Source: an uncultured Pelagibacteraceae bacterium (lineage in GTDB: Bacteria > Pseudomonadota > Alphaproteobacteria > Pelagibacterales > Pelagibacteraceae). Taken from it: a stretch of 64,000 bases of DNA. The DNA lies in the NCBI GenBank assembly GCA_902517535.1, contig CABYCK010000001.1, positions 85,317-149,316 of the forward strand, read 5' to 3'. Below the pieces are notes generated by a model. The model saw nothing but the letters and a program-made list of their open reading frames with translations, did not search any database and had not been told where the DNA came from. Shown here in pieces: positions 29,815 to 64,000 of this stretch. Numbering within the stretch: the first letter of the stretch is position 1; the number at the start of each line of letters is the position of its first letter. A program made the position numbers and the translations under genes.

Positions 29815-29835
29815 GAAATATCTTCAAATTAAAAC

Positions 29836-29890
29836 TGGGTATTTGAACTATATTGTACGCCCGACATTTCGTCAAAGTACTAAAAAGGAG
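29836..29890 (+). ncRNA. probable SAM-V riboswitch overlapping the metY ribosome-binding site
   Basis: After the terminator comes a second conserved-looking leader with TTGTACGCCCGACATTTCG and then GTCAAAGTACTAAAAAGGAG, which runs into the Shine-Dalgarno sequence (AGGAG at 29886-29890). GTAC at 29855-29858 can pair with GTAC at 29877-29880 just before the AAAAAGGAG. This is the layout of SAM-V, a SAM-II-like pseudoknot known from SAR11-type marine bacteria that controls translation. SAM-II followed by SAM-V is an established tandem arrangement. The identification is from memory of the motif, not from a covariance model. Confidence 0.65.
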
Positions 29891-29897
29891 AAAAAAA

Positions 29898-52286: not shown

Positions 52287-53357
52287 TTAAAATTGAAAAT
52301 ATTCGTAAATTTGCCTAATGCACAACAATCTTTTATTAAAATTTTTTCCACCTTTATGCCATTCAATAATTTTTTTAATCGACTCATCCAAGGACCATTT
52401 GGGGTGCCAATTTAGAGTTTTCTTAGCTTTATTATTGTTTAATCGTAATAGCCCTGTTTCTTTTTTAAGATTTTTTTTGTTATCTTTTTTTATCTTTATT
52501 TTAACTTTGTAAGAATTTGAAAATTTTTTGGCTATATAAGAAACTGTTTTACAATTTTTTAGATTAGGTCCAAAATTCCAAGATTGATTGTCATTTTTCA
52601 TTTTTTTATTAAACAATTTTTCTGCTAAAATTATATACCCAGATAATGGCTCTAACACATGTTGCCATGGCCTAATAGAATTTGGATTTCTAACAATAAT
52701 TTTTTTATTTTTATCTACTGATTTTATAATGTCAGGTATTAGTCTGTCTTCAGAATAATCGCCTCCACCTATAACATTTCCCGCTCTAGCCGTTGCAAGT
52801 ATTTTTCTTCTATCTTTAGTAAAAAAAGAATTAATATAAGAATAAAAAATGGTCTCACAACAAACTTTGGATGCACTATAAGGATCAATTCCTCCTAATA
52901 AGTCACTCTCTTTAAATACTTTGTTTTTCTTTACATCGTAAACTTTGTCTGAAGTGACTAATACTGCTGATTTAATTGATTGAATGTTTTTAATTGCATT
53001 CAAAATATTTAAAGTACCATTGGCATTTGTTTCTATTGTTTCTATTGGATTTGTATAAGATTTTCTTACTAAAGCTTGGGCTGCCAAATGAAAAATAATA
53101 GTTGCTTTTGAATTTTTTATTGCTGAATGAATTTTAGATCTATCTCTTATATCTCCAATAATAGATCTATATATAAAATTTTTAATTTTTGCCTGATCAA
53201 ATAAATTTGTATGACTGTATGGTTTTAAAGAATAACCAGTAACATGTGCTCCAAGACTTTTTAAAACTAAACATAGCCAACTACCCTTAAAACCTGTGTG
53301 ACCTGTAACAAAAACTTTCTTATTTTTCCAGAAATTAGGGTTAATAATTTTTTTCAT
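52287..53357 (-). CDS. rfbG: CDP-glucose 4,6-dehydratase
   Basis: 356 residues. SDR Rossmann motif VFVTGHTGFKGSWLCLVLKSLG (15-36). The catalytic YxxxK is in DPYSASKVCCE, after VTSDKVYD; ARAGNVIGGGDYSEDRLIPD and SIRPWQHVLEPLSGY are typical of RfbG. It makes CDP-4-keto-6-deoxyglucose for cell-surface sugars. It stands alone here, just upstream of the tmRNA and its array, with no rfbF or rfbH next to it. Confidence 0.92.
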   Translation of the reverse strand: MKKIINPNFWKNKKVFVTGHTGFKGSWLCLVLKSLGAHVTGYSLKPYSHTNLFDQAKIKNFIYRSIIGDIRDRSKIHSAIKNSKATIIFHLAAQALVRKSYTNPIETIETNANGTLNILNAIKNIQSIKSAVLVTSDKVYDVKKNKVFKESDLLGGIDPYSASKVCCETIFYSYINSFFTKDRRKILATARAGNVIGGGDYSEDRLIPDIIKSVDKNKKIIVRNPNSIRPWQHVLEPLSGYIILAEKLFNKKMKNDNQSWNFGPNLKNCKTVSYIAKKFSNSYKVKIKIKKDNKKNLKKETGLLRLNNNKAKKTLNWHPKWSLDESIKKIIEWHKGGKNFNKRLLCIRQIYEYFQF

Positions 53358-53394
53358 TGAATATATATAAATTAGTTTTATATTAAAAATGTTG

Positions 53395-53660
53395 GTTTAC
53401 CAACTATGACGATAAACGAATTTCGTAATAAACATTGCGGACGTGGGGGCAGTACCCACCACCTCCACCAAATATATTAAAATAAGGGGGGTGAATTAGG
53501 ATCGACGAATGTCTAAAAGCTATTCTTTCGTACGAGATGGTTCCGACGTAACGGGCCAATTTACAAATGCTAACGAAAGTTACGCACTTGCTGCTTAATT
53601 AACCTAGTTAATTAAGTTACGGGGTTTGGGGCACCTGGCAACAGAACGCCCCTTCGTAAC
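53395..53660 (+). ncRNA. ssrA: circularly permuted two-piece tmRNA
   Basis: The acceptor piece comes first and ends with encoded CCA at 53468-53470. The coding piece starts at 53487 (GGGGGTG). The acceptor stem pairs 53487-53493 with 53460-53466 and includes G89 opposite T64 as the third pair, the alanine identity wobble. Helix 2 pairs ACATT (53432-53436) with AATGT (53508-53512). GGATCGACG is the conserved D-like region. The tag frame (53569-53598) encodes ANESYALAA, followed by the CTTAATTAA-CCTAG-TTAATTAAG hairpin. The 3' part is enclosed by GTTACG (53616-53621) and CGTAAC (53655-53660). The T-loop reads GGCAGTA and lacks TTC. The outer boundaries are approximate. Confidence 0.92.
53569..53598 (+). 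other. tmRNA proteolysis-tag reading frame
   Basis: Resume codon GCT (53569) followed by AAC GAA AGT TAC GCA CTT GCT GCT TAA gives ANESYALAA. The C-terminal YALAA matches the ClpXP-recognised tag ending. It is one residue shorter than the E. coli ANDENYALAA, by alignment to that tag. The resume codon is inferred from alignment and not from experiment. Confidence 0.8.
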
Positions 53661-53754
53661 GGCTTAAACTATTATCAATTTAACGTTTTTTAGATTCTGA
53701 TCACAATTGGATCACAGTGAGAAAAGAAATTTTAGTGTGCGGGGGAATTATTTA
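53628..53754 (+). repeat. repeat R1 (inside ssrA) with long right tail
   Basis: The core hairpin (53628-53652) is GGGGC, CACCTGGCAACAGAAC minus overlaps, GCCCC, and lies within the tmRNA coding piece. The right tail continues to 53754. From 53630 the 125 bases match R2 at 114 positions by hand count. The tail contains a direct repeat GATCACA-ATTG-GATCACA (53699-53717 region) and ends AGTGTGCGGGGGAATTATTTA-like. Confidence 0.9.
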
Positions 53755-53782
53755 AAATTTTCCACTTTTCTTAACATTTTCT

Positions 53783-54613
53783 TTAACTAACTTTCTTTAT
53801 ATTATCAAGATTTTCAGCAGACGGATTTTTTAAAAAAAATAAAAATTTTTCTTTAAGTTTTATCATTTTTAAATCTTTGTTTTCAAGCATATTCAATTCT
53901 TCTCTAATAGATTTTTCTTCACTTAAAAGTGTATGACAAAAAAGACCCATTGTTCTTTCCTGTGGAACAGAATTATAACAATATTTATTTTTCGTTTTGT
54001 CATATGATTTTAAATATTGTTCAGCAGAAATTATAAAATATTTTTTTGCTTCCTCAAAATTATCATCAAAACCTATTTGTCCGTGATAGAAAAAAAATGC
54101 TAAATTATAGGAAGCTAATGGATGACCAAGCATTGAGGCACTTTCAGTTAATTGTAGAGATTTCTTAAAATCTTTTTGAACTTTGCCATCCTCTCCTGAA
54201 TAATATATCCACCCCAAATATACCATTGCGGGTGTGAAAAATTGTTTAGCTGACTCTTCAAGCCAGAAAACACCTTGCCTAACATCTGTCTCAAAACCTT
54301 CAGAACCTTCAATAAAAGCCTTGCCAACACCAAACTGAATTATTGCATCACCTTTTTTAGCTATTTGAACTCCTCTCTCTTGCACGGATAAATTTTTAGT
54401 TGTTTTTTTTTGTTTTAATTTTCTTTCTAATTCAAGTTGGCGAATTCTTCTTTCAAGCTGTCTTTGTTTTTTTTTATTATTTCCTTTTTCCAAAGACTCG
54501 AATGCTCTATCTAAAGAACTTTTTTTGTTAGGGTCGTGTCCTAAATAATGATTTGCGTTAGTATTTGAAGATAAAAACAAACCCAGAACCACGATCGCTA
54601 AAATTTTTTTCAT
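53783..54613 (-). CDS. exported Sel1-like repeat protein (array unit 1)
   Basis: 276 residues from ATG 54613; a longer in-frame start (54634) would precede the signal peptide. MKKILAIVVLGLFLSSNTNA is a signal peptide. A basic coiled-coil stretch (NNKKKQRQLERRIRQLELERKLKQKK, about 46-71) is followed by Sel1/TPR-like repeats (GVFWLEESAKQFFTPAMVYLGWIYYSG, ASMLGHPLASYNLAFFFYHG, AKKYFIISAEQYLKS). Sel1 repeats mediate protein contacts. The client is unknown. The 5' 27 bases of the signal-peptide region are identical to those of the lipoprotein gene in unit 3. Confidence 0.75.
   Translation of the reverse strand: MKKILAIVVLGLFLSSNTNANHYLGHDPNKKSSLDRAFESLEKGNNKKKQRQLERRIRQLELERKLKQKKTTKNLSVQERGVQIAKKGDAIIQFGVGKAFIEGSEGFETDVRQGVFWLEESAKQFFTPAMVYLGWIYYSGEDGKVQKDFKKSLQLTESASMLGHPLASYNLAFFFYHGQIGFDDNFEEAKKYFIISAEQYLKSYDKTKNKYCYNSVPQERTMGLFCHTLLSEEKSIREELNMLENKDLKMIKLKEKFLFFLKNPSAENLDNIKKVS
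54577..54603 (-). repeat. shared signal-peptide coding segment, copy 1
   Basis: These 27 bases (containing CCAGAACCACGATCGCTAAA on the plus strand) are identical to 55998-56024. In both places they encode the LAIVVLGL part of a signal sequence of otherwise unrelated proteins. Confidence 0.85.
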
Positions 54614-54641
54614 GGACTCAGCATAACCCGTCACACCGTTG

Positions 54642-54672
54642 GACTCAATACGGACTCATCCAGCAAAGAAAT
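54642..54672. repeat. shared upstream block, copy 1 (GACTCA repeats)
   Basis: GACTCAATACGGACTCATCC followed by AGCAAAGAAAT matches 55452-55482 at 30 of 31 bases. Further GGACTCA copies lie at 54614 and 54641. The block is upstream (minus strand) of the unit 1 gene. It may be an operator or the right end of the mobile unit. Confidence 0.7.
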
Positions 54673-54730
54673 CAGGGCTTCTGGTTGTATTAGAATTGTT
54701 GTATATTAATAAATAACGTTAACAGGTTCA

Positions 54731-54856
54731 CGGCACCTGGCAACAGAACGCCCCTTCGTAACGGCTTAAACTATTATCAATTCAACGTTTTTTAGATTCT
54801 CAACACACATACGACACAGTGACGAAAGAAATTTTAGTGTGCGGGGGAATTATTTA
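54731..54856 (+). repeat. repeat R2 with long right tail
   Basis: Core at 54731-54754 (GGCACCTGGCAACAGAACGC then CCC). From 54732 it follows R1 for 125 bases with 11 mismatches. The last bases of the tail contain the stop codon of the unit 2 gene (54850-54852). Its left side lacks the ssrA-type TTACGGGG arm and instead carries AACGTTAACAGGTT, as does R3. Confidence 0.9.
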
Positions 54857-55422
54857 TAAGCTTTATTTTCAAGCCAATTTATAAATTCTTGTGAAGAAAT
54901 TGCGATATTGAAACTATCTTTCCAATTGTTCTTTTTCGTATATTTATCGCTCCAATTATCACAATAAATTCTTACTAAACCATTCTTAATTTTTAGTTCA
55001 GTTACGTTAGAAAAGCTCTTGCCATATTTTTTTTGATAATCACTTATATAATTTTTTTCACTTTTTACTCCTAAAACATCTTTAACTTCTTTTATAGCAA
55101 TTTTTTTTATTTCTAAACATTCATTAAATTCTATTATATTTCTCCCTGCCATGGAATACACTACGAATTTATTATCATTTTTTTTTAAATGAAAGTTGAT
55201 TAATTCATAGACGCTCTTCTTACTGTTAAAATTTATTTTATGAAAATTATCATCACCTAGATAAAACATTTTTTTTCTTGAATTAATCTGATTTTTATCA
55301 AAATAATCTAACAAACTATCTCCTATACTTATCCCGTTTATCTGAAAGTCCCTTATATCATCCGCCTGGGATGGTAGCATGAAGCATAAGCTTAGAGTGA
55401 TGATAACTAAAAGTTTTTTCAT
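54850..55422 (-). CDS. exported protein, DIRDFQI family member A (array unit 2)
   Basis: 190 residues from ATG 55422. Signal peptide MKKLLVIITLSLCFMLPSQA, then DDIRDFQINGISIGDSLLDYF, which closely matches the start of the unit 3 protein at 56089-56670. The C-terminal ends also correspond (SSQEFINWLENKAYK versus NTSEFSTWLNTKAYK), so the two are paralogues over their length. I recognise no known domain. The stop codon lies inside the R2 tail. Confidence 0.75.
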   Translation of the reverse strand: MKKLLVIITLSLCFMLPSQADDIRDFQINGISIGDSLLDYFDKNQINSRKKMFYLGDDNFHKINFNSKKSVYELINFHLKKNDNKFVVYSMAGRNIIEFNECLEIKKIAIKEVKDVLGVKSEKNYISDYQKKYGKSFSNVTELKIKNGLVRIYCDNWSDKYTKKNNWKDSFNIAISSQEFINWLENKAYK

Positions 55423-55451
55423 TGAACTCATCATATCCGGACTCAATGGCA

Positions 55452-55482
55452 GACTCAATACGGACTCACCCAGCAAAGAAAT
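55452..55482. repeat. shared upstream block, copy 2 (GACTCA repeats)
   Basis: It matches 54642-54672 with one C/T difference. Additional GGACTCA or AGACTCA copies lie at 55439 and 55451, giving an iterated GACTCA pattern upstream of the unit 2 gene. Confidence 0.7.
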
Positions 55483-55529
55483 AGCCGTTTTTTATGATCT
55501 AGAATTGTTGTATAACGTTAACAGGTTAA

Positions 55530-55650
55530 GGGCACCTGGCAACAGAACGCTCCTTCAAAAGACTCGAAACTCCCGTTAAACAATAATTTTTAAAAAGTGG
55601 TCACACTGGTGGCACAGTGAGAAAAGAAATTTTAGTGTGCGGGGATATTA
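55530..55650 (+). repeat. repeat R3 with partly conserved right tail
   Basis: Core at 55530-55553 with one change (GCTCC instead of GCCCC). The middle of the tail has diverged, but the last 32 bases (55613-55644) are identical to R1 53713-53744. The tail runs into the stop codon of the lipoprotein gene (55648-55650). The left side AACGTTAACAGGTT is shared with R2. Confidence 0.85.
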
Positions 55651-56049
55651 GTCTTTTAAGTCTATTTTTATAGTAAATATTTTTCTCTGAGTAGGTCCAA
55701 AATTTTGATGGGGAGTCAAAGTATCTTCAAATTCCAATAAGACTAAAGAAGCGTAATTAATTGATGGTAAGTTATTTAAATTTGCTATTAATGTCACAGC
55801 TGTTTGATCTCTGAATGCAAATAATCTTATAATTATATCGTCGTTGCATTTTATTGAAGTTTTTTTCCATTCTTTTTCACATTTAAAAATTTCTAACTTT
55901 ACATCACCTAATCTTTGCCATTCGGAAGGTAAACTGTCTTCAATCTGATTTTTAATACCGATTTTATTTTTCGTTGTGGTAGCACATCCCGTTAACAACA
56001 AACCCAGAACCACGATCGCTAAAAGTTTTTTTATTTTAATCTTCACCAT
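55648..56049 (-). CDS. predicted lipoprotein (array unit 3, distal gene)
   Basis: 133 residues. The signal ends at a lipobox LLLTGC (about 16-21), after KKLLAIVVLGL. The mature part contains DSLPSEWQRLGDVKLEIFKCEKEW and a paired cysteine (KTSIKCNDDIIIRLF). I know no matching family. It lies 39 bases downstream of the DIRDFQI paralogue on the same strand, so unit 3 is a two-gene operon. Its signal-coding bases are identical to those of unit 1. Confidence 0.7.
   Translation of the reverse strand: MVKIKIKKLLAIVVLGLLLTGCATTTKNKIGIKNQIEDSLPSEWQRLGDVKLEIFKCEKEWKKTSIKCNDDIIIRLFAFRDQTAVTLIANLNNLPSINYASLVLLEFEDTLTPHQNFGPTQRKIFTIKIDLKD
55998..56024 (-). repeat. shared signal-peptide coding segment, copy 2
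   Basis: Identical over 27 bases to 54577-54603, inside the 5' end of the unit 3 lipoprotein gene. Confidence 0.85.
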
Positions 56050-56088
56050 ATTTATGTGACTCCTGATCTTTAAATCCGTGTCTATATT

Positions 56089-56670
56089 TTATTTATAAGC
56101 TTTGGTGTTTAGCCATGTAGAAAATTCACTTGTATTAATAATTAATCTTAGGTTATCTGTATACTTCATCTTTTTTGACCAGTCATAACAAGAAATCTTT
56201 ATTACATCGCCACTACTAAAATTAAATTGAACAGTTGTATTCTTGCTATTACCAGTTTTATCAGCTGAGTGATTTTTTTTATATTCATTTTTGGTTGTAT
56301 CTATATTTAAATTTTCTACATCTGAAACCAAAGTCTTCATATCTTCGTAGCATTCATTAATATTTTTTCTGTAAAGTATTTTTCCTGTAATGTTGTAAAT
56401 TATATATTTAGGATCATCTTTTTTAATATGAAATTGAGTTCTGTCATACACTTCAGCATTTTTAGTAATACCAACTAGTGAAAATGAATTATCTTTATAA
56501 TTTGTTTTTTTAAAGGGTACTATTCCTTTTTTTATTTCAGATTCTTTAAAATAATCGAGCAAACTATCTCCGACGCTAAACTCTTCTATCTGAAAGTCCC
56601 TTATATCATTCGCATGGGTTGGGGTTATAAAGCATAAGCTTAGGATGATGATCGCTAAAAGTTTTTTCAT
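56089..56670 (-). CDS. exported protein, DIRDFQI family member B (array unit 3)
   Basis: 193 residues from ATG 56670. Signal peptide MKKLLAIIILSLCFITPTHA, then NDIRDFQIEEFSVGDSLLDYF. A conserved cysteine pair is suggested by INECYEDMK and KISCYDWSKK, which align with FNECLEIKK and RIYCDNWSDK in the unit 2 paralogue. No known domain. The presence of two diverged copies in neighbouring units suggests duplication or repeated capture. Confidence 0.75.
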   Translation of the reverse strand: MKKLLAIIILSLCFITPTHANDIRDFQIEEFSVGDSLLDYFKESEIKKGIVPFKKTNYKDNSFSLVGITKNAEVYDRTQFHIKKDDPKYIIYNITGKILYRKNINECYEDMKTLVSDVENLNIDTTKNEYKKNHSADKTGNSKNTTVQFNFSSGDVIKISCYDWSKKMKYTDNLRLIINTSEFSTWLNTKAYK

Positions 56671-56720
56671 ACTCCACGATCCTAGCATAAGTTTGGACGC
56701 ATCTGTGACGCAATTTTCAT

Positions 56721-56780
56721 CAAAGTTTTAGATCTTTAACAATCGCAAATGGCGTATATTAAGGAATAATGTTACAAAGT
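56721..56780. repeat. right-end block type B, copy 1
   Basis: This 60-base block immediately left of R4 matches 57482-57541 left of R5 at 52 of 60 positions by hand count. It includes GCAAATGGCGTA and AAGGAATAATG. It is distinct from the block left of R2 and R3. Confidence 0.75.
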
Positions 56781-56783
56781 TAA

Positions 56784-56808
56784 GGGCACCTGGCAACAGA
56801 ACGCCACC
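56784..56808 (+). repeat. repeat R4
   Basis: Core GGGCACCTGGCAACAGAACG then CCACC. No long right tail; the superoxide dismutase stop codon begins 2 bases later (56810). Confidence 0.9.
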
Positions 56809-56809
56809 T

Positions 56810-57403
56810 TTAATCTAATTGAGATTCAACAAACTCCCAATTAATTAATTTTTCGAAAAAATTTTCTAAGTACTCAGGTCTCCTATTTTTATAATCTATA
56901 TAATATGAATGCTCCCATACATCACAACCTAAAATAGGTTTCATGTCTTGAATTAATGTATTCTCAGCATTTGGCGTCTTGCTTATTACCAATTTACCAT
57001 TATTAATTGATAACCAACACCAACCTGATCCAAACTGGGTAATGCCTGCTTGTATAAACTGTTTTTTAAACTCATCTGTGCTGCTAAAATCTGATTCAAT
57101 TCTTTTTTTTAACTTTTCAGGCATTGTGCCCCCACCTTTTGGTTTCATACATTTCCAGAACATTATATGGTTCCAGTGTTGACTGGCATTATTAAAGATT
57201 CCAGCTTTAGATTTATCTTTCGATGAATTAATAATAATTTCCTCTAAAGACATTTTAGACATTTCAGTCTCTTTAATTAAATTATTAAGATTTGTTATGT
57301 AAGTCTGATGATGTTTTCCATGATGAAGGTCGAGGGTTTCTTCAGACATAATTGGAGCTAAAGCAGTTTTTGGATAATCTAATTTTGGTAACTCGAAAGA
57401 CAT
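56810..57403 (-). CDS. sodB: Fe/Mn superoxide dismutase (array unit 4)
   Basis: 197 residues, complete. Metal ligands are likely H27 (LDLHHGKHHQTYITNLNNL), H79 (SQHWNHIMFW), D161 and H165 (CDVWEHSYYIDYKNRR). FGSGWCWL lies at 124-131, and the pattern favours the Fe or cambialistic type. It disproportionates superoxide in the cytoplasm; no signal peptide. It is a recognised metabolic enzyme placed between R4 and R5, with its stop 2 bases from R4. That makes it the most informative cargo gene of the array. Confidence 0.94.
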   Translation of the reverse strand: MSFELPKLDYPKTALAPIMSEETLDLHHGKHHQTYITNLNNLIKETEMSKMSLEEIIINSSKDKSKAGIFNNASQHWNHIMFWKCMKPKGGGTMPEKLKKRIESDFSSTDEFKKQFIQAGITQFGSGWCWLSINNGKLVISKTPNAENTLIQDMKPILGCDVWEHSYYIDYKNRRPEYLENFFEKLINWEFVESQLD

Positions 57404-57481
57404 GTCTAACCATATAATTTTAAATGATTTTTTACATGATCAAAATGACGCTAGGAGATCGTAGCTAGGTCATAAATTCCC

Positions 57482-57541
57482 CAAAGTTTTAGATTTTATG
57501 CAATTGCAAATGGCGTACAATAAGGAATAATGATACAAAGT
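57482..57541. repeat. right-end block type B, copy 2
   Basis: It corresponds to 56721-56780 without gaps. It lies upstream of sodB on the minus strand, so it may also hold the sodB promoter. Confidence 0.75.
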
Positions 57542-57543
57542 CC

Positions 57544-57567
57544 GGGCACCTGGCAACAGAGCGCCCC
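57544..57567 (+). repeat. repeat R5
   Basis: Core GGGCACCTGGCAACAGAGCG then CCCC, with one A-to-G change in the loop. It is flanked on the left by block B. Confidence 0.9.
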
Positions 57568-57627
57568 TTAGAAATTAAGTTTATAAGTCGCATTTTAATT
57601 TTTATTTTTTAGATTAAAAAATAGTTG

Positions 57628-57750
57628 ATGAAAACATTAATACTCCTATCTTTGACGGTGGTAATTTTCTACATACTTTTCAGACCAGCTTCTAAAAAGG
57701 AGCTTAAAAAGTTTCAAGATTATGACAACTGGTCAAATATGGGTTTTTAA
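57628..57750 (+). CDS. 40-residue membrane microprotein (array unit 5)
   Basis: Short frame from ATG 57628 to TAA 57750. It has one hydrophobic segment (LILLSLTVVIFYILF, about 4-18) and a charged tail SKKELKKFQDYDNWSNMGF. No family is recognised. It precedes the 68-residue exported protein by 13 bases, consistent with a two-gene transcript. Length alone gives limited support. Confidence 0.4.
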   Translation: MKTLILLSLTVVIFYILFRPASKKELKKFQDYDNWSNMGF

Positions 57751-57763
57751 CAAAAGGAAAAAA

Positions 57764-57970
57764 ATGAAAAAAACTTTAATTCTTTTAGTTCTAAGTCTTT
57801 TCACTAGTTCAGCGATCGCTGGTTCGTGCCCAATGTTAGCTGGAAAAGTTGATAATAAAATTAAAGCTGCTCAAAAACTTCATGATGAGGGAATGGCAGC
57901 GCATTCAAACGGTGATCATGCAAAATCTGAAGAGCTTTTAAAACAAGCTTTAAATCTTTTTAAAGGTTAG
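57764..57970 (+). CDS. small exported protein (array unit 5)
   Basis: 68 residues from ATG 57764, which follows an AAAAGGAA purine stretch. Signal peptide MKKTLILLVLSLFTSSAIA, then GSCPMLAGKVDNKIKAAQKL and an alpha-helical TPR-like hairpin (HDEGMAAHSNGDHAKSEELLKQALNLF). A longer in-frame start at 57722 would bury the signal peptide. It resembles small periplasmic helical proteins of unknown role. Its stop lies 15 bases before R6. Confidence 0.72.
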   Translation: MKKTLILLVLSLFTSSAIAGSCPMLAGKVDNKIKAAQKLHDEGMAAHSNGDHAKSEELLKQALNLFKG

Positions 57971-57985
57971 ATTTACGAGGGGTCC

Positions 57986-58010
57986 GGGGCACCTGGCAAC
58001 AAAACGCCCC
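57986..58010 (+). repeat. repeat R6
   Basis: Perfect GGGGC/GCCCC arms with loop ACCTGGCAACAAAAC (one G-to-A change). The left side TTACGAGGGGTCC resembles the ssrA arm TTACGGGGTTT, unlike R2-R5. The next base (58011) starts the stop codon of the DUF2784 gene. Confidence 0.9.
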
Positions 58011-58373
58011 TTATTCTTTCTTAAAATTTTTGTAAATTAATCCGTAAATTAAAATATTAATAACTATAAGCGATATACCAAAATATATTTGAATTTCAGC
58101 AGTTAAGCCCTCAGGATAAATAATTGGAAAAAGATAGTTGTTGATAAAATCGTTTGAATAAGTTGTTAAATCTCCTTTATACAAAAACCAATTTTCGAGA
58201 TAAGTTAATGGACAAACAGAATTTGTTAATTCTATATAAATTCCCCATAATAACGCTGGGAGGTGAATATAGATGATTTTTGAAAAAACAAAAAAGAGCA
58301 ATCCACCAAAAATAACAAATAAGATAAAAATTAAATGTGCAATTAAAGTAAGATTTGCAAACAATTCGTACAT
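58011..58373 (-). CDS. DUF2784 family membrane protein (array unit 6)
   Basis: 120 residues with three or four helices. The DUF2784 pattern is visible in ANLTLIAHLIFILFVIFGG, HLPALLWGIYIELTNSVCPLTYLENW and the late IQIYFGISLIVINILIYG. The function is unknown. The stop codon directly abuts R6 and the start lies 24 bases from R7, so the gene fills its unit completely. Confidence 0.85.
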   Translation of the reverse strand: MYELFANLTLIAHLIFILFVIFGGLLFFVFSKIIYIHLPALLWGIYIELTNSVCPLTYLENWFLYKGDLTTYSNDFINNYLFPIIYPEGLTAEIQIYFGISLIVINILIYGLIYKNFKKE

Positions 58374-58396
58374 TCAATATATTAACTAAAATTAAA

Positions 58397-58419
58397 GGCA
58401 ACTGGCAACAGAACGCCCC
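58397..58419 (+). repeat. repeat R7
   Basis: Shorter arms (GGC/GCC) with AACTGGCAACAGAACG in the loop (C-to-A change) and a following run of T (58420-58425). It is the most eroded left half of the family. The T-run would allow it to act as a terminator. Confidence 0.85.
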
Positions 58420-58434
58420 TTTTTTCTTCCACTA

Positions 58435-58530
58435 TTATTCAATAGCTTTAACTTCTCCTATTTTTCCTAGATCAGATAAAAAGATCGTCAGAAAAAAAAT
58501 AATTAATATTGAGTGAAAATTTAAACTCAT
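58435..58530 (-). CDS. 31-residue hydrophobic microprotein (array unit 7)
   Basis: Short frame on the minus strand: MSLNFHSILIIFFLTIFLSD then LGKIGEVKAIE. An AAAGG sequence lies about 7 bases before the ATG. One membrane segment is predicted. The stop lies 15 bases from R7. Evidence is limited to the ribosome-binding site and hydrophobicity. Confidence 0.35.
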   Translation of the reverse strand: MSLNFHSILIIFFLTIFLSDLGKIGEVKAIE

Positions 58531-58580
58531 TTTGAGCCTTTAGCATAAAATTGGCTAATGGTGTACAGTCGTGATATCTC

Positions 58581-58586
58581 TATAAT
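58581..58586 (+). promoter_or_regulatory. possible -10 box for the unit 7 lipoprotein gene
   Basis: A consensus TATAAT lies 33 bases before the ATG at 58619. I found no convincing -35 at 16-18 bases. Confidence 0.3.
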
Positions 58587-58618
58587 TGGTTAAAATATTC
58601 TGCTAAAGTGAAAAAAAT

Positions 58619-59074
58619 ATGAAAAAATTTTTATTAATCTTACTTATATTTAATTATGGCTGCGCATCTACCGGAGTTAAAAATGAGTCCCAATTAGTTG
58701 TTGATTCAAAAGATATGGCTAATGTTTATATTTATAGACAAGGTGGTTTTTTATATGGAGGAGTTAGAGCTATAATTAAATTAAATAATCTTGAGGTTGG
58801 ATCAATATATCCTAAAGATTTTTTAAAATTTTATGCGCCTGAGGGTAGCAATATGATAACGGTACGTGCAGATCCTCTGTCTCTAGTATTCGGAGAAACT
58901 AATATTCCAATAAATTTCAAAAAAGGTAAAAGTTATTACTTTATAACTGGAGTTAACTCAGCAAATGTAGCTGGTGCTATATTAGGTGGAGCTATTGGTA
59001 CAGCTATAGTTGGCGGCCCTTTTCCATCTCATCAAGTTACAAAAGAAATTTTTGATAGAAACAAAGGCAAATAG
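58619..59074 (+). CDS. DUF2846-like lipoprotein (array unit 7)
   Basis: 151 residues. Lipoprotein signal MKKFLLILLIFNYGC (Cys15). The domain ANVYIYRQGGFLYGGVRAII, then EVGSIYPKDFLKFYAPEGSN and KKGKSYYFITGV, resembles DUF2846 of small lipoproteins. A glycine-rich hydrophobic stretch (VAGAILGGAIGTAIVGGP) near the end could insert in a membrane. The function is unknown. Confidence 0.78.
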   Translation: MKKFLLILLIFNYGCASTGVKNESQLVVDSKDMANVYIYRQGGFLYGGVRAIIKLNNLEVGSIYPKDFLKFYAPEGSNMITVRADPLSLVFGETNIPINFKKGKSYYFITGVNSANVAGAILGGAIGTAIVGGPFPSHQVTKEIFDRNKGK

Positions 59075-59133
59075 TTAGTAAGCTAGTAACCGAACATATC
59101 ATAGTATATAGTTTAGTAAGGAAAGGAGTCTCA

Positions 59134-59193
59134 ATGAGTGGTTTTGAAATTTTAGCAGTTGTAGCTGTTATATATTGGATAGTAAGTAATTAA
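59134..59193 (+). CDS. 19-residue membrane microprotein (array unit 7)
   Basis: Frame MSGFEILAVVAVIYWIVSN. A strong Shine-Dalgarno AAAGGAG (59122-59128) lies 5 bases before the ATG, better than for most genes here. The peptide is almost wholly hydrophobic. It lies 60 bases after the DUF2846-like gene and stops 16 bases before R8. Confidence 0.5.
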   Translation: MSGFEILAVVAVIYWIVSN

Positions 59194-59209
59194 ATTATTT
59201 ACGGGGCTA

Positions 59210-59234
59210 GGGGCACCTGGCAACAGAACGCCCC
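59210..59234 (+). repeat. repeat R8 (distal end of the array)
   Basis: Identical to R1 over the 25-base core with intact GGGGC/GCCCC arms. Its left side TTACGGGGCTA closely matches the ssrA left arm TTACGGGGTTT. After R8 no further copy was found up to 64000. Confidence 0.92.
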
Positions 59235-59290
59235 GTATAATTAAGAATTTAAGGCTTGATTAAAAAAAATTAAAACTATAAAGTTTGATT

Positions 59291-59656
59291 ATGAAATACG
59301 CTTTTCTAATCATTACTGGATTAATACTTTCGTCTTGCGCGACTATAGTAAACGACGCTAACGTTCCAGTTTCGTTGTCTTTCTCTGATGGAAGTAGTGG
59401 TACATGTCAATTATCTAATAAAAGAGTTTCTTTGAGCGTAAAAATTCCAGGTCAGCCTTTAATAAGAAGATCAGATGATCCATTGAGATTTAACTGTGAA
59501 ACCAACAGTGGTAAAAAAGGTTTTGGGAGCATTCCAAGTTCAATCGAGTCAGGAAAACTTGCAGGAAGTGTAATTTTTTGGGATTTGGGTATAACTGACT
59601 CCATCACCGATAAACACAGAACTTATCCTACAAGTTTCGTAATTCCTGTTAATTGA
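59291..59656 (+). CDS. small predicted lipoprotein
   Basis: 121 residues from ATG 59291 (a TTG 6 bases earlier is less likely). Lipobox LILSSC (Cys17). Mature part: ATIVNDANVPVSLSFSDGSSG, then a beta-rich segment and FWDLGITDSITDKHRTYPTSFVIP. It has a look of the small lipoproteins that carry a TIVN-x-Pro-V pattern, but I cannot name a family. It is the first gene beyond R8 and may be the oldest cargo or original flank. Confidence 0.72.
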   Translation: MKYAFLIITGLILSSCATIVNDANVPVSLSFSDGSSGTCQLSNKRVSLSVKIPGQPLIRRSDDPLRFNCETNSGKKGFGSIPSSIESGKLAGSVIFWDLGITDSITDKHRTYPTSFVIPVN

Positions 59657-59768
59657 TTTTAAATTAAATAAACTGTCGTTATAAAGTTTTAATATTAAAA
59701 AAAATTAACATTTTTAATAAAAATTTTAAAGATGAGATTGTGGTATTTTTTTGCTATCATTAATTCCT

Positions 59769-60545
59769 ATGAAGAAATTTCTTACTACAGTTAGCTTTTG
59801 TATTTTCTTTAGCAATTTATCTTTGGCTGGATCTTTATATGGATATGGAAAATTTGAGATTTCTAAAACTGTCTTAAATAAGATTTATGATTATTTAGGC
59901 TCTGGAACAAAAAATAAAAAAAGAGGAGCAAAAAAATCTGGTCCTGGAACTTATTTTGCAGTAGCAGAGTCTGGAAATTGGTATGGAGCAGGTTACTGTC
60001 CTTATAGTCAATGCTCAGATAATCCTCTCATGATAAAAAGTCATTGTGAAAAACAAACTTTAAAAACATTAGGTAGAAAAGAAAAATGTAAATTAATGTT
60101 TAAAGGAAATACATTAAAATGGAACGGTTTAGGATTGAGAATGTCTCAAAATGATGATGTGGAGAGTTTAATCTCTAAAGCTGGAATTACTATTATTGGT
60201 TCTAAATCCTCTAATCAAAAATCTGTTTACATTTCAAAAAAAAGAAAAGGTGTCCGTTCATTTACTATGAACTGGCGAGGATATAATAATTCGATAACTG
60301 GAAAATTAAGTTTTGTTGAAGAAGAAAAGAGGGGAAATATTAATATTACCCTACCTAAAAGGGATGGAAATTGCATCGGATCATATATTTTATCCTCTAC
60401 TCAAGGCACTTGGTCAATAATTTGTGATAAAATTAATAAAAGTGCTTCAGGTTTTTTAAAATGGAATACGAAAGATGGAAGTGTTAATGGGACTGGTCAA
60501 GATGCAAGAGGTAACTTTGTGTCTTTTGCTGTTAACGGAGTTTAA
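59769..60545 (+). CDS. exported protein of unknown function
   Basis: 258 residues from ATG 59769; in-frame ATG-less sequence upstream is rejected. Signal peptide MKKFLTTVSFCIFFSNLSLA. The mature part includes YGYGKFEISKTVLNKIYDYLG, AVAESGNWYGAGYCPYSQC with several cysteines, and a C-terminal repeat-like beta region (SGFLKWNTKDGSVNGTGQDA). No family recognised. Cysteine content suggests a disulfide-stabilised periplasmic protein. Confidence 0.72.
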   Translation: MKKFLTTVSFCIFFSNLSLAGSLYGYGKFEISKTVLNKIYDYLGSGTKNKKRGAKKSGPGTYFAVAESGNWYGAGYCPYSQCSDNPLMIKSHCEKQTLKTLGRKEKCKLMFKGNTLKWNGLGLRMSQNDDVESLISKAGITIIGSKSSNQKSVYISKKRKGVRSFTMNWRGYNNSITGKLSFVEEEKRGNINITLPKRDGNCIGSYILSSTQGTWSIICDKINKSASGFLKWNTKDGSVNGTGQDARGNFVSFAVNGV

Positions 60546-60562
60546 TTAATTTAAATAAAATT

Positions 60563-60877
60563 ATGAAAAATAGTATAGTTTTTTTTACCTTATTTATATT
60601 TTGTGTTTCTTGCGCTACTCCGACTGTAGTAAACGTAATTGGTCCTAATGATAATGAGCTTACATGTAAAGAATTAAATGCAGAGATTGCATTAGCAAAC
60701 AAGTATGCAGACGAAGCACAGGAGGCAAAAAAAATGGATAAGCCACATAACATAAGTGCACTATTATTTTTTCTACCTGGTTATGGAATTACTTTAAAGA
60801 ATATTGAAGAAGCTACTAAAGCTGCTAGGGAAAGAGCGGTGCATTTGAATAAAATTAAAGAAAAGAAAAATTGTTAA
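60563..60877 (+). CDS. small predicted lipoprotein
   Basis: 104 residues. Signal MKNSIVFFTLFIFCVSC with Cys17. It contains LTCKELNAEIALANKYADEAQ, a helical segment typical of small alphaproteobacterial lipoproteins, and a hydrophobic ISALLFFLPGYGITLKN. It lies 17 bases after the preceding gene and ends 5 bases before the methyltransferase ATG. Confidence 0.72.
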   Translation: MKNSIVFFTLFIFCVSCATPTVVNVIGPNDNELTCKELNAEIALANKYADEAQEAKKMDKPHNISALLFFLPGYGITLKNIEEATKAARERAVHLNKIKEKKNC

Positions 60878-60882
60878 AAATT

Positions 60883-61344
60883 ATGGAGTTTGTAATTAAT
60901 CACAAAAGATTTTCAAAGACTTATGAAAATGAAGAGGCTAAAAAATATTCTTTTTCAGAAAATAGAATTAGAAGATTTCCAGATTACGTACCAGGTTATT
61001 ATAACTTTTTTACTCATCATGCACAAAAAAATTACAAACTAGAAAAGATAAAATGTATTTGTGGGGAAGAAAATGATTTAATTTTATCTAACACAGATAG
61101 ACATTGCGTAAAGTTTATAACAGTTATCTGTAAAAATTGTGGTTTGATAAGAGCAAAAGAATATTTTAGAGACGAAGACGTTACTGATTTTTACACAAAT
61201 TATTATAGAGATAAAGACTTTAGAAGTGGAAAAGAAAAAGGAGGTAAAGAAAAGTTTGATGAACAGTTTAAAGAAAAAAAATTTCAATTTGATCTAATTA
61301 ATCGTTATAAAATTTATGAACTTAAAAAAAAAAAAAATTGTTGA
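60883..61344 (+). CDS. SAM-dependent methyltransferase, N-terminal part (frameshifted gene)
   Basis: About 153 residues from ATG 60883 to a premature stop at 61344. It holds a zinc-ribbon-like region with CICGEENDLIL and VICKNCGLIRA (C-x-C and C-x2-C), then YYRDKDFRSGKEK, as in class I methyltransferases of surface-sugar biosynthesis. At 61324-61337 a run of 14 A shifts the frame. With 13 A the protein would continue directly into the methyltransferase domain encoded from 61316 on. Confidence 0.7.
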   Translation: MEFVINHKRFSKTYENEEAKKYSFSENRIRRFPDYVPGYYNFFTHHAQKNYKLEKIKCICGEENDLILSNTDRHCVKFITVICKNCGLIRAKEYFRDEDVTDFYTNYYRDKDFRSGKEKGGKEKFDEQFKEKKFQFDLINRYKIYELKKKKNC

Positions 61345-61945
61345 TTTAGGTGGTGCTGCAGGAGGAGTTCTTAAACATTTTGGAGAAGAAAATGATCTAT
61401 TTTTATTTGATTTTTACGATCCCTATTTGGAATATGCAAAAAGTCAAGGCATCAATGTTGTTAAAGGGGGGTTAGAAGAAATTAATTTTAAGCCTGATGT
61501 AATAATTTTATCTCATGTTATTGAGCATTGGAATAATTTTGAGAGAGAGATCGAAAAATTAATTAAAGTACAGGAAGTTGGAAAAACAATGAATTATATC
61601 GAATTTCCTGGAATAGACAGTATTAAGAAAGGTCGAAGAGAGGGAGATGTATTAGGAGATTTGCAAGTACCTCACGTTTATTATTTTACTTCTTACGTGT
61701 TTGAAAATCTTATGAATAGATATGGTTTTGAAAAGTTATATATAGACACTTTAATAAAATCAGTGTTTGTTTATACTGGAAAAAAAAAGACATTAATCAA
61801 TCATTATCAGACAGTTTATAACGATCTTATAAAAGCGGAAACCACAAGAAAAATTCAAATATTTAAAAACTTTATAAAATTGTTAATTCCGAAATTTTTG
61901 ATAACAACAATAAGAAAATTTAGAAATAAAGGTATTAAATTTTAA
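61316..61945 (+). CDS. SAM-dependent methyltransferase, C-terminal part (frameshifted gene)
   Basis: About 209 codons in the next frame. Motif I of class I methyltransferases is KIVDLGGAAGGVLKHFG, and ILSHVIEHWNNFEREIEKLI is the Methyltransf_23-like motif. The apparent ATG start at 61316 is probably not used; the segment is best read as the second half of the preceding gene, joined across the poly-A run. A stand-alone domain or an expressed pair cannot be excluded. The acceptor is unknown. Confidence 0.7.
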   Translation: MNLKKKKIVDLGGAAGGVLKHFGEENDLFLFDFYDPYLEYAKSQGINVVKGGLEEINFKPDVIILSHVIEHWNNFEREIEKLIKVQEVGKTMNYIEFPGIDSIKKGRREGDVLGDLQVPHVYYFTSYVFENLMNRYGFEKLYIDTLIKSVFVYTGKKKTLINHYQTVYNDLIKAETTRKIQIFKNFIKLLIPKFLITTIRKFRNKGIKF

Positions 61946-61948
61946 AAA

Positions 61949-62029
61949 TTAAAAAATATATTTATCTCCTAAATAAAATAATATTCCAATGGCGATACCT
62001 AAAAAAATCCAATAATAATTTTCTTTCAT
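61949..62029 (-). CDS. 26-residue membrane microprotein coupled to the pyrophosphohydrolase gene
   Basis: Frame MKENYYWIFLGIAIGILFYL then GDKYIF. Its ATG overlaps the TGA of the upstream pyrophosphohydrolase gene as ATGA (62026-62029), the classic arrangement for translational coupling. One membrane helix is predicted. No family recognised. Confidence 0.5.
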   Translation of the reverse strand: MKENYYWIFLGIAIGILFYLGDKYIF

Positions 62030-62400
62030 TTCAATAAAATGTTTTTTAAATTTGGTTTAAAGTATTTTGGTCCTTTCATAACTTTTCCTTTTTCATTGTA
62101 TATTGGTTTTCCATTATCGTCTAATTTACTCATGTTTGAATTTTGAACTTCATCAAAACACTCGTCTAAATCAATACCAAAAGCATGGCCTGCCCCATAA
62201 GTAACATATAAAATATCTGTGAGAGCGTCGGCCACTTCGACAATATCCTTGTTTTTTAAAGCTAAGTTTAATTCTTCAAGTTCCTCTTTTATTAATCCAT
62301 ACCTAAGATTAACAATATCCTCTTTAGGAAAAATAGCTTTATCTTTAATTTCTTGGCCAAATGTTTGCATAAATTTTTTAACTTTCTGAAAATTGCTCAT
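62026..62400 (-). CDS. MazG-like nucleotide pyrophosphohydrolase
   Basis: 124 residues. The all-alpha NTP pyrophosphatase pattern is YGLIKEELEELNLAL (EExxE) followed by VEVADALTDILYVTYGAGHAFGIDL (ExxD). It hydrolyses nucleoside triphosphates or related compounds. The C-terminal DDNGKPIYNEKGKVMKGPKYF is typical of a subgroup found in bacteria and phages. It starts 60 bases from the divergent fumC. Confidence 0.85.
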   Translation of the reverse strand: MSNFQKVKKFMQTFGQEIKDKAIFPKEDIVNLRYGLIKEELEELNLALKNKDIVEVADALTDILYVTYGAGHAFGIDLDECFDEVQNSNMSKLDDNGKPIYNEKGKVMKGPKYFKPNLKNILLK

Positions 62401-62460
62401 TTATTTCTCCAATTGTATTTTGTCTAACATAAAATAAAGTGTATTATAAAAGAATCACAT

Positions 62461-63849
62461 ATGAAATATAGAAATGAATTTGATAGTATTGGTAAAATAA
62501 AGGTGTCTGGTGATAAGTATTGGGGGGCGTCCACAGAGAGATCAAATAAATATTTTAATATAGGTGATTTTTTAGTAAGGCCAATTGTAATCCACTCAAT
62601 AGCTTTAATTAAAAAGGCCGCGGCTATAGTAAATTCTAAAAATAAAGACTTGGAACCAAAATTAGCAAAGTTTATCATTAAAGCTGCTAACGAAGTGATC
62701 AATGGCAAACTTGATCATCATTTCCCTTTGAAAGTTTGGCAAACTGGCTCTGGGACTCAAACGAATATGAACGTTAATGAAGTTATAGCTAATCGAGCTA
62801 TTCAATTAATGGGTGGGAAAATGGGGACCAAAAAACCAGTGCATCCCAATGATCATGTAAATAAATCACAGTCGACAAATGACGTTTTTCCTACAGCTAT
62901 GCATATTGCTATAGCAATGAAATCAAGAGAAAAACTATTGCCATCATTAAAATTATTGGAGAAAGAATTATCAAAAAAAGCAAGAGAGTTTAAAAATATA
63001 GTAAAAGTTGGAAGAACTCATTTGCAAGATGCTACTCCATTGACTTTGGGACAGGAGTTTTCTGGTTATCATTTTCAATTAAAAAATTCCATAACCAGAA
63101 TTGAAAATTCTTTAAAAGAAATATATTATTTAGCACAAGGAGGTACTGCGGTAGGAACTGGATTAAATACTAGAAAAAATTTTGACAAGAAAATTATTAA
63201 AGAGATAAGTAAAATCACAAAATTACCATTTAAACCATCTTTAAATAAGTTTGCGGCTTTAGCGGCTCACGATGAAATAGTAAATTTCTCTGGAACTCTA
63301 AATACTACAGCTGTTTGTTTAATGAAAATAGCAAATGATATTAGATTTTTAGGTTCAGGACCTAGGGCAGGATACGGAGAATTAATTTTACCTTCTAATG
63401 AACCAGGGTCTTCTATAATGCCAGGAAAAATAAACCCTACTCAATCAGAAGCAGTCACAATGGTTTGCGTAAAAGTAATTGGAAATCATAACGGTATTAC
63501 AATGGCTGGATCACATGGTCATTTTGAATTAAATGTATTTAAACCTCTAATTATTCATAATATTTTACAATCAGTAGAAATAATGAGTGACTCCGCAAAG
63601 ACCTTTGCAATGTATTGTGTCAAAGGAATTAAAGCGGATAAAAAAAGAATAAAATATCTCTTGGATAATTCTTTAATGTTGGTTACGGCTTTAGCTCCTA
63701 CAATAGGATACGACAAAGCTGCAAAAATTGCTAAGACTGCGTATAAAAATGGAACAACCCTTAAAGAAGAGGTAATTAAAAGTGGCTTAATAAATGCTAA
63801 AGAGTACGATAAAATAATGAGTCCAATAAAAATGACAAAACCAAAATAA
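62461..63849 (+). CDS. fumC: fumarate hydratase, class II
   Basis: 462 residues, full length. The signature [16 protein letters not shown] is present (about 318-333), as are [17 protein letters not shown] and the active-site [15 protein letters not shown] region with the catalytic histidine. It hydrates fumarate to malate in the TCA cycle. The Fe-free class II enzyme suits oxidative surface waters. It has a start 60 bases from the divergent pyrophosphohydrolase gene. Confidence 0.96.
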
Positions 63850-63851
63850 GA

Positions 63852-64000
63852 TTAATCTATTTCTAAAAGAAATTTTTCAATTTTAGTTATTTCAAAAATA
63901 TTCAAAAAATTTTCATTAAATAAAATCTTCTCAAAAATTTCTTTATAATATTTTAAATCTTGTTCGTTAGCAGAATAATTTTCATTATAACTTATCTTAT
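63852..64000 (-). CDS. C-terminal end of an unidentified gene (cut by window edge)
   Basis: An open minus-strand frame from the window edge ends at TAA 63852. It encodes about 48 residues with YNENYSANEQDLKYYKEIFE and ending ITKIEKFLLEID. It is convergent with fumC, 2 bases apart. No family can be assigned from so short a piece. Confidence 0.4.
   Translation of the reverse strand, partial: KISYNENYSANEQDLKYYKEIFEKILFNENFLNIFEITKIEKFLLEID

Follow-up and report, generated by a model that had tools for sequence, protein, structure and literature searches.

What is the stretch of DNA that follows the end of the ssrA gene, and that recurs further downstream, in the genome of an uncultured Pelagibacteraceae bacterium? 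The locus lies in a 64,000-nucleotide stretch of contig CABYCK010000001.1 (hereafter the window, to which coordinates refer unless a locus is named). The bacterium is of the SAR11 type, and the named genomes that share its internal sites are single-cell or metagenome genomes of Pelagibacteraceae. Here ssrA encodes a permuted two-piece transfer-messenger RNA (tmRNA; tag ANESYALAA; 53353–53655, plus strand) that was identified using Rfam (RF01849, 222.9 bits, with the match ending at 53655) and ARAGORN. The hairpin at its 3' end, GGGGCACCTGGCAACAGAACGCCCC, contains a core sequence of which eight copies are found over 5.6 kb, from the 3' end of ssrA rightwards, against an expectation of 0; the first of these, R1 (GGCACCTGGCAACAGAACGCC, 53630–53650, plus strand), lies within ssrA itself. 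The gene is full length by Rfam, such that an array bounded by direct repeats of the tmRNA end has left its target whole. Three of the cores are followed by a similar sequence, the ‘tail’, and an earlier note on this DNA had proposed that it belongs to incoming units and not to ssrA alone. We consider that this 125-base tail probably forms the right (P') arm of a lambda-like attachment site, carried by small integrative cassettes that insert at the 3' end of ssrA, with the tmRNA 3' end acting as the core.

Within the window the tails are found to the right of cores R1, R2 (54732–54752) and R3 (55531–55551), occupying 53653–53753, 54755–54855 and 55554–55653, respectively (all plus strand). R1 and R2 are identical at 114 of the 125 bases counted from the core start, exactly as found earlier by hand, and the final 32 bases of the R3 tail (55613–55644) were likewise found to be identical to 53713–53744 of R1 (32/32), a stretch from which R2 differs at two positions. 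When core and tail are taken together, the identity to R1 is 92% for R2 and 76% for R3, and a profile of the tail matches all three copies at E = 1e-25 to 1e-29 (1.3e-28 for R1). The differences between R1 and R2 are unevenly distributed, as 8 of the 11 fall inside an 18-bp box of direct repeats (hypergeometric p = 2e-5). On the plus strand this box reads GATCACA-attg-GATCACA in R1 (53699–53716), CAACACA-cata-CGACACA in R2 (54801–54818) and GGTCACA-ctgg-TGGCACA in R3 (55599–55616), and it is a candidate for a pair of arm-type sites. The tails of R2 and R3 run, as had been observed, into the stop codons of minus-strand open reading frames (ending at 54850 and 55648).

One alternative is that ssrA transcripts end in the tail, as a conserved 3' portion or a terminator, with R2 and R3 being duplicated ssrA ends. 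In its favour, the R1 tail comes directly after ssrA, whose 3' end forms the core; the Rfam match, however, stops at 53655, where the tail begins. Loci of up to 20 kb around the cores were collected from 80 further genomes of the genus and all turned core-forward. Among the first 40 of these genomes about ten loci have the tail after the ssrA core and others have it after internal cores (the second core of L032, the third of L035 and L037, the second and fourth of L039), whilst no tail without a core was found. Most ssrA genes of the relatives lack the tail and have other sequence in its place, and in L037 and L039 it is present at internal cores yet absent at ssrA. Two homologous types of tail were distinguished, type I (as in the window) and type II (CCTGCGTATTGGCGTTAACACTTATTAATTCACA). 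The most direct evidence comes from genome G002, which has no array and none of the tail, although a conserved part of the ssrA precursor would be expected there: its ssrA core is joined at once to the flank that in the window lies 8.3 kb away (61949–64000; 79% identity over 2,048 nt). The 8.3 kb from 53653 to 61949 is therefore inserted DNA, and the tail arrived with it. In L033 and L036 the same outer flank (the B' side) directly follows the last core. The empty site and the tail-free ssrA genes rule out the tail as part of the ssrA precursor, and an origin in the ssrA transcript is barely credible; the tails at internal cores further support the view that the tail belongs to the incoming units. 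As to whether a tail always adjoins a cargo stop codon or an ssrA copy, a question raised in the earlier note, every tail found adjoins a core, but only some tails (7 of 11 of type I and roughly 14 of 33 of type II) end at a cargo stop codon.

The direct repeats within the tail indicate how such an arm might work. An alignment of 18 tails revealed that the GATCACA pair of R1 is one of several forms taken by a 7-mer that is doubled at an 11-base period about 60 bp to the right of the core (~69 bases from the core start), and when both sides of every core were scanned, similar doubled 7-mers were found 80–90 bases to the left of internal cores. Tag positions and thresholds were then fixed before being tested on 40 fresh genomes and, later, on 21 more loci, giving one discovery set and two independent sets. 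Right tags were present at 28/105, 32/115 and 29/57 cores, compared with 1, 1 and 0 in equally long control stretches, and left tags at 22/65, 23/75 and 22/37, compared with 1, 1 and 0. Thus, as in a lambda-type attachment site, short direct repeats are found at a fixed distance on both sides of the core. The 7-mers at the two ends of the same unit match one another: the mean longest common substring is 7.13 versus 4.12 when permuted (0 of 5000 permutations reached this in each of the three sets), with the proviso that the measure is simple and that related units are not fully independent. At least 6 bases are common to both end tags in 34 of 54 units, and codes seen at both ends of their own units include GGGCGGA, GTCGCCC, ACTCGTC, TGGCACA, GTACGGG, GATCACA and GGACTCA. 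No such match is seen between the tags that flank a single core and belong to different units (3.60 versus 3.90 permuted). Among 33 distinct type II tails the stretch preceding the tag is nearly invariant (mean diversity 0.05), whilst the tag itself occurs mainly as one of three discrete doubled codes (GATCACA in 12, GGACTCA in 9 and GGGCACA in 8); the two copies vary in concert, as in most units do the two ends. The tags would thus represent arm-type sites of a recombinase, and the earlier proposal that GATCACA-ATTG-GATCACA has this role gains support, as it is one of several codes that co-vary at both unit ends and the same layout is found in elements that carry an integrase (see below).

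Two other functions for the tags have to be considered. Pho boxes resemble this 7-4-7 geometry, and the repeats could be sites for a transcriptional regulator of the cargo genes, since minus-strand cargo genes have the left tags just upstream of them, and 53 of 54 tagged units have their cargo on this strand. The same code is, however, also found at the opposite end of the unit, beyond the stop codon; the codes vary from unit to unit whilst their distances are fixed relative to the core; and in the integrase-bearing G048 and G329 elements the left tags lie beyond the integrase stop codon or overlap the 3' end of the gene and tags flank both attachment cores, all of which makes a regulatory role very unlikely. 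Alternatively, the tags could be bound by a recombination directionality factor (excisionase) and not by the integrase, which would leave the cassettes flanked by attachment sites as before. Excisionase sites normally lie on one arm, whereas here both arms carry the same code, and we regard this alternative as unlikely. In its favour, the sites of an excisionase may take the form of direct repeats spaced by one helical turn, as described for phage 186 Apl (PMC7498355).

In the window itself, the codes at the two ends of each of the first three units do not match. Unit 1 has GATCACA to the right of R1 and GGACTCA-atac-GGACTCA to the left of R2 (54641–54658, with a third copy at 54614–54620); unit 2 has CAACACA/CGACACA on the right and AGACTCA-atac-GGACTCA on the left (55451–55468); and unit 3 has GGTCACA/TGGCACA on the right and GGACGCA-tctg-TGACGCA on the left (56695–56712; all left-arm boxes plus strand). 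Because left and right codes no longer match, the three similar tails are best understood as those of related cassettes whose ends have been partly swapped or fused, and the earlier description of these unit ends as ‘mix-and-match’ fits, with exchange the presumed cause. Across genomes, mismatched codes are found in 15 of the 33 units with right tags near the core, a class to which the shared long tails belong, versus 5 of the 21 others, a difference that exchange of ends between homologous tails would lead one to expect. For single cases of mismatch, decay of a tag is an alternative to exchange.

If the tags are arm-type sites, which recombinase reads them? No integrase was detected as encoded within the small units, no PF00589 match was found near any core in 86 genomes, and when the larger units were searched for a recombinase only the element in G048 had one. 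A tyrosine integrase of the element's own, the mark of an integrase-type island, is found only in the large elements of G048 and G329, among the rare 8–9 kb ssrA elements which encode a divergent tyrosine integrase and share the core-plus-tag anatomy of the small units. The G048 element (locus L049) extends from the ssrA core to about 12.1 kb of the turned locus, and beside its far end lies the gene for a 409-amino-acid protein that no Pfam model recognises. Relatives of this protein match integrase models weakly or well (phrog_1 integrase, 4.8e-13, for the G329 copy), residues R235, K269, R345 and Y377 are invariant in five relatives, and its structural model was matched by Foldseek with probability 1.00 to XerA, Cre, the Tn1549 integrase and IntI. 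The G048 tag, ATGTACC, is present in three copies to the right of the ssrA core (+74, +85 and +97) and two before the far core (-55 and -43); the G329 tag, CAACGAAG, is present in three copies on the right (+71, +83 and +94) and three on the left (-104, -59 and -47). In both elements the left tags lie after the integrase stop codon or overlap the 3' end of the gene, and the left arm of G329, TTAGTAAGTAAATATGCTAATT, has similar counterparts at two cores of small units (L049 12935 and L055 10811). Of 397 family genomes, 10 contain relatives of the G048 integrase, several of them fragmentary; the copies in G048, G329, G314 and G133 are encoded within about 9 kb downstream of ssrA (G314 and G133 being remnants), whilst those at other places (in G148, near a tRNA-Gly, G160 and G258) could be assigned to no attachment site. 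A tandem GGCAGACAACT with a period of 11 was observed ~50 bp downstream of a tRNA-Gly gene and upstream of an integrase relative (L193 7837–7865), and tag-like arms may exist at tRNA targets too. The G329 element additionally encodes a relative of the T4-type gp45 sliding clamp just before the integrase (L184:768–1505; phrog_223, 1.5e-41), together with a serine resolvase, which suggests that it is a satellite of T4-like phages.

An alternative source of recombinase is the host itself, whose single Xer-like enzyme might assemble the array in the way of Xer/dif cassette modules. A single Xer-like tyrosine recombinase of 304–325 amino acids is indeed present in most genomes of the genus, that of the window genome being encoded at L001:1138–2052. 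Such a length leaves little room for an arm-binding domain, the sequence common to all sites is the tmRNA core and apparently not a dif-like one (the dif site of the window genome was not located), and the paired, unit-specific codes would be left unexplained. The window enzyme scores far below the XerC and XerD cut-offs and, at 34 bits, also far below that of the integron model TIGR02249 (cut-off 265); Pelagibacter ubique, moreover, has been reported to lack dif/Xer (PMC2731167). A host Xer-like recombinase as the builder of the array is therefore highly improbable. Viral sources were sought in IMG/VR, where the exact core was found only in phage-borne tmRNA genes and a 17-base core mostly in tmRNA genes, where the tail and left-arm patterns gave no match, and none of the phage records searched matches the tail or the integrase. 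Phage contigs of this collection (L072–L079) carry complete permuted tmRNA genes, most with the tag ADENLALAA, that contain the exact 21-base core; incoming phage DNA could therefore be a second target for the same integrases.

Taken together, a cassette would exist as a circle in which the core is followed by the tail and its two 7-bp tags, by a cargo gene that is usually encoded on the minus strand, by the same pair of tags once more and by the left (P) arm, which leads back to the core. An integrase supplied in trans would bind the tags through its N-terminal arm-binding domain and cross the cassette core into that of ssrA, which would stay intact because the unit brings the same core. New cassettes would land beside ssrA and old ones decay outward, whilst different codes would correspond to different integrase specificities. 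Cassettes appear to be marked with the same code at either end, and this would account for their mobilisation by an integrase that they do not encode. Several points weigh against this scheme. The cassette circle, its excision and its transfer have not been observed, and binding of the tags by the integrase and mobility itself are inferred. Among the units with both tags 20 of 54 do not match, and, given the mismatched codes of units 1–3, the window alone would not prove the matching-end rule. An integrase that reads the codes of the window was not found, and the two integrase elements that are intact have codes of their own and differ in the left half of the core. A search with PF00589 would overlook highly divergent integrases, as it did that of G048; the assemblies are incomplete single-cell or metagenome genomes; and the strands and helix predicted for the N-terminal domain of the integrase are modelled with low confidence (predicted local distance difference test mostly <50 over residues 1–45).

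The composition of the arrays can be described for many loci. Unit length has a median of about 0.8 kb, and most of 129 units are unique; one, a 409-bp unit encoding a DUF2784 protein, was found in 12 loci at different positions. The longest frame of tag-bearing units is on the strand opposite to ssrA in 53 of 54, and amongst units with a frame of at least 100 amino acids this minus-strand bias is strong in first-position units (41 to 6) and less marked in those farther away. Mean core mismatches rise outward from 0.01 at ssrA to 0.82, 1.42, 1.35, 1.79 and 2.47, and the correlation of core decay with distance from ssrA (rho 0.34, p 3e-5) was calculated from internal cores only, with ssrA left out. 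Type I and type III restriction-modification systems and methyltransferases are encoded by large units at other loci.

In the window the first cargo genes are all encoded on the minus strand. Unit 1 encodes an exported Sel1-repeat protein of 283 amino acids (53783–54634; PF08238, 6e-13) and unit 2 an exported protein without a Pfam match (54850–55476), the stop codon of which forms the last bases of the tail. Unit 3 (55648–56688) holds two genes, a lipoprotein-like one (55648–56049) and one for an exported protein related to the unit 2 cargo (56089–56688; repeats D4 and D12), which suggests a fusion of two units, and it is probably of that origin. Signal-peptide and upstream DNA is common to the cargo genes of neighbouring units (repeats D6 and D7; 54553–54672, 55410–55482, 55974–56034 and 56610–56670) whilst the mature proteins differ, and cargo may have been swapped behind a common leader. 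Core R4 (56785–56805) has no tail, and immediately to its right is the stop codon of the unit 4 cargo, an Fe/Mn superoxide dismutase (56810–57403, minus strand; PF02777 and PF00081); degenerate left-arm tags, GATCGTA-gcta-GGTCATA (57457–57474, plus strand; compare GGTCGTA-gcta-GGTCGTA in L050 and L058), precede R5 (57545–57565, one mismatch). R6 (57988–58008) opens the 409-bp unit mentioned above, with its DUF2784 gene at 58011–58373 (minus strand), and is followed by R7 (58397–58417) and R8 (59212–59232), the final recognisable core; R2 to R8 are, like R1, on the plus strand. Between R8 and the outer flank lie 2.7 kb with five plus-strand genes (59232–61949), probably old units whose cores have decayed. 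Elsewhere in the window, a SAM-V riboswitch was found at 29828–29893 (75.1 bits).

SAR11 bacteria are among the most abundant cells on Earth and have small, streamlined genomes with few known mobile elements; tiny cassettes with matched end codes offer a concrete and testable route by which they could take up new genes. They also form a natural collection of attachment sites, with a constant core and variable arm tags, that could serve the study of how integrases choose arm sites and of how dependence on helpers evolves. A literature search found no paper describing rows of cassettes at SAR11 ssrA or paired unit-specific tags; most subscription papers lay outside its coverage and novelty is unproven.

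How do these cassettes compare with known systems? A lambda-type phage attachment site (attP) has a core with arm-type direct repeats on both sides, those of the right arm being about 50–70 bp from the core. The SAR11 units share this layout, with putative arm-type direct repeats on both sides of the core and those on the right at a similar distance, and differ in that the integrase gene is absent from the unit and in the many alternative codes on one shared core. The tmRNA islands of Dehalococcoides (vcr-GEI; PMC2764846) are likewise inserted site-specifically at the ssrA 3' end, where cargo genes alternate with ~20-bp direct repeats of ssrA, of which one strain has 11 downstream of the gene, and where some similarity was noted in the 150 bp around each repeat; they differ in having a block of recombination genes beside ssrA, whereas the SAR11 units are mostly of one gene, have no detected recombinase and carry paired unit-specific tags, for which no description was found in that account. 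The IntY islands of Pseudomonas, one of which is transduced by a jumbo phage (PMC12595487), also integrate directly downstream of tmRNA between direct repeats of its end, and they resemble the SAR11 units further in their defence cargo and in transfer by a helper, which is putative for the latter; each of the islands has many genes and its own integrase (and AlpA), unlike a row of sub-kilobase cassettes. Additive flexible genomic islands, as in Methylopumilus, where repeats of tRNA-Lys recur (PMC10872708), and in Alteromonas (PMC5217437), gain and lose cassettes largely by site-directed recombination; recurring repeats of the end of an RNA gene are shared with the Methylopumilus islands, whilst the ssrA target and the resolution of unit ends into a core plus coded arms are not. 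Tycheposons, in the definition quoted in PMC10872708, are elements of 4–200 kb beside a tRNA gene with a tyrosine recombinase, in contrast to a median unit of 0.8 kb, no detected recombinase and an ssrA target. Charybdis elements, which were also considered, are archaeal and unrelated. As in integrons, single-gene cassettes stand in a row at a fixed site with the proximal ones mostly in one orientation; unlike integrons, no integron integrase was detected, and the recombination core would be the tmRNA 3' end in place of attC. There is, in our judgement, about an even chance that gene capture in SAR11 is integron-like yet mechanistically separate, with integrase-free cassettes that share one core and each carry a private 7-bp code, doubled at both ends, which would be read by cognate integrases in trans.

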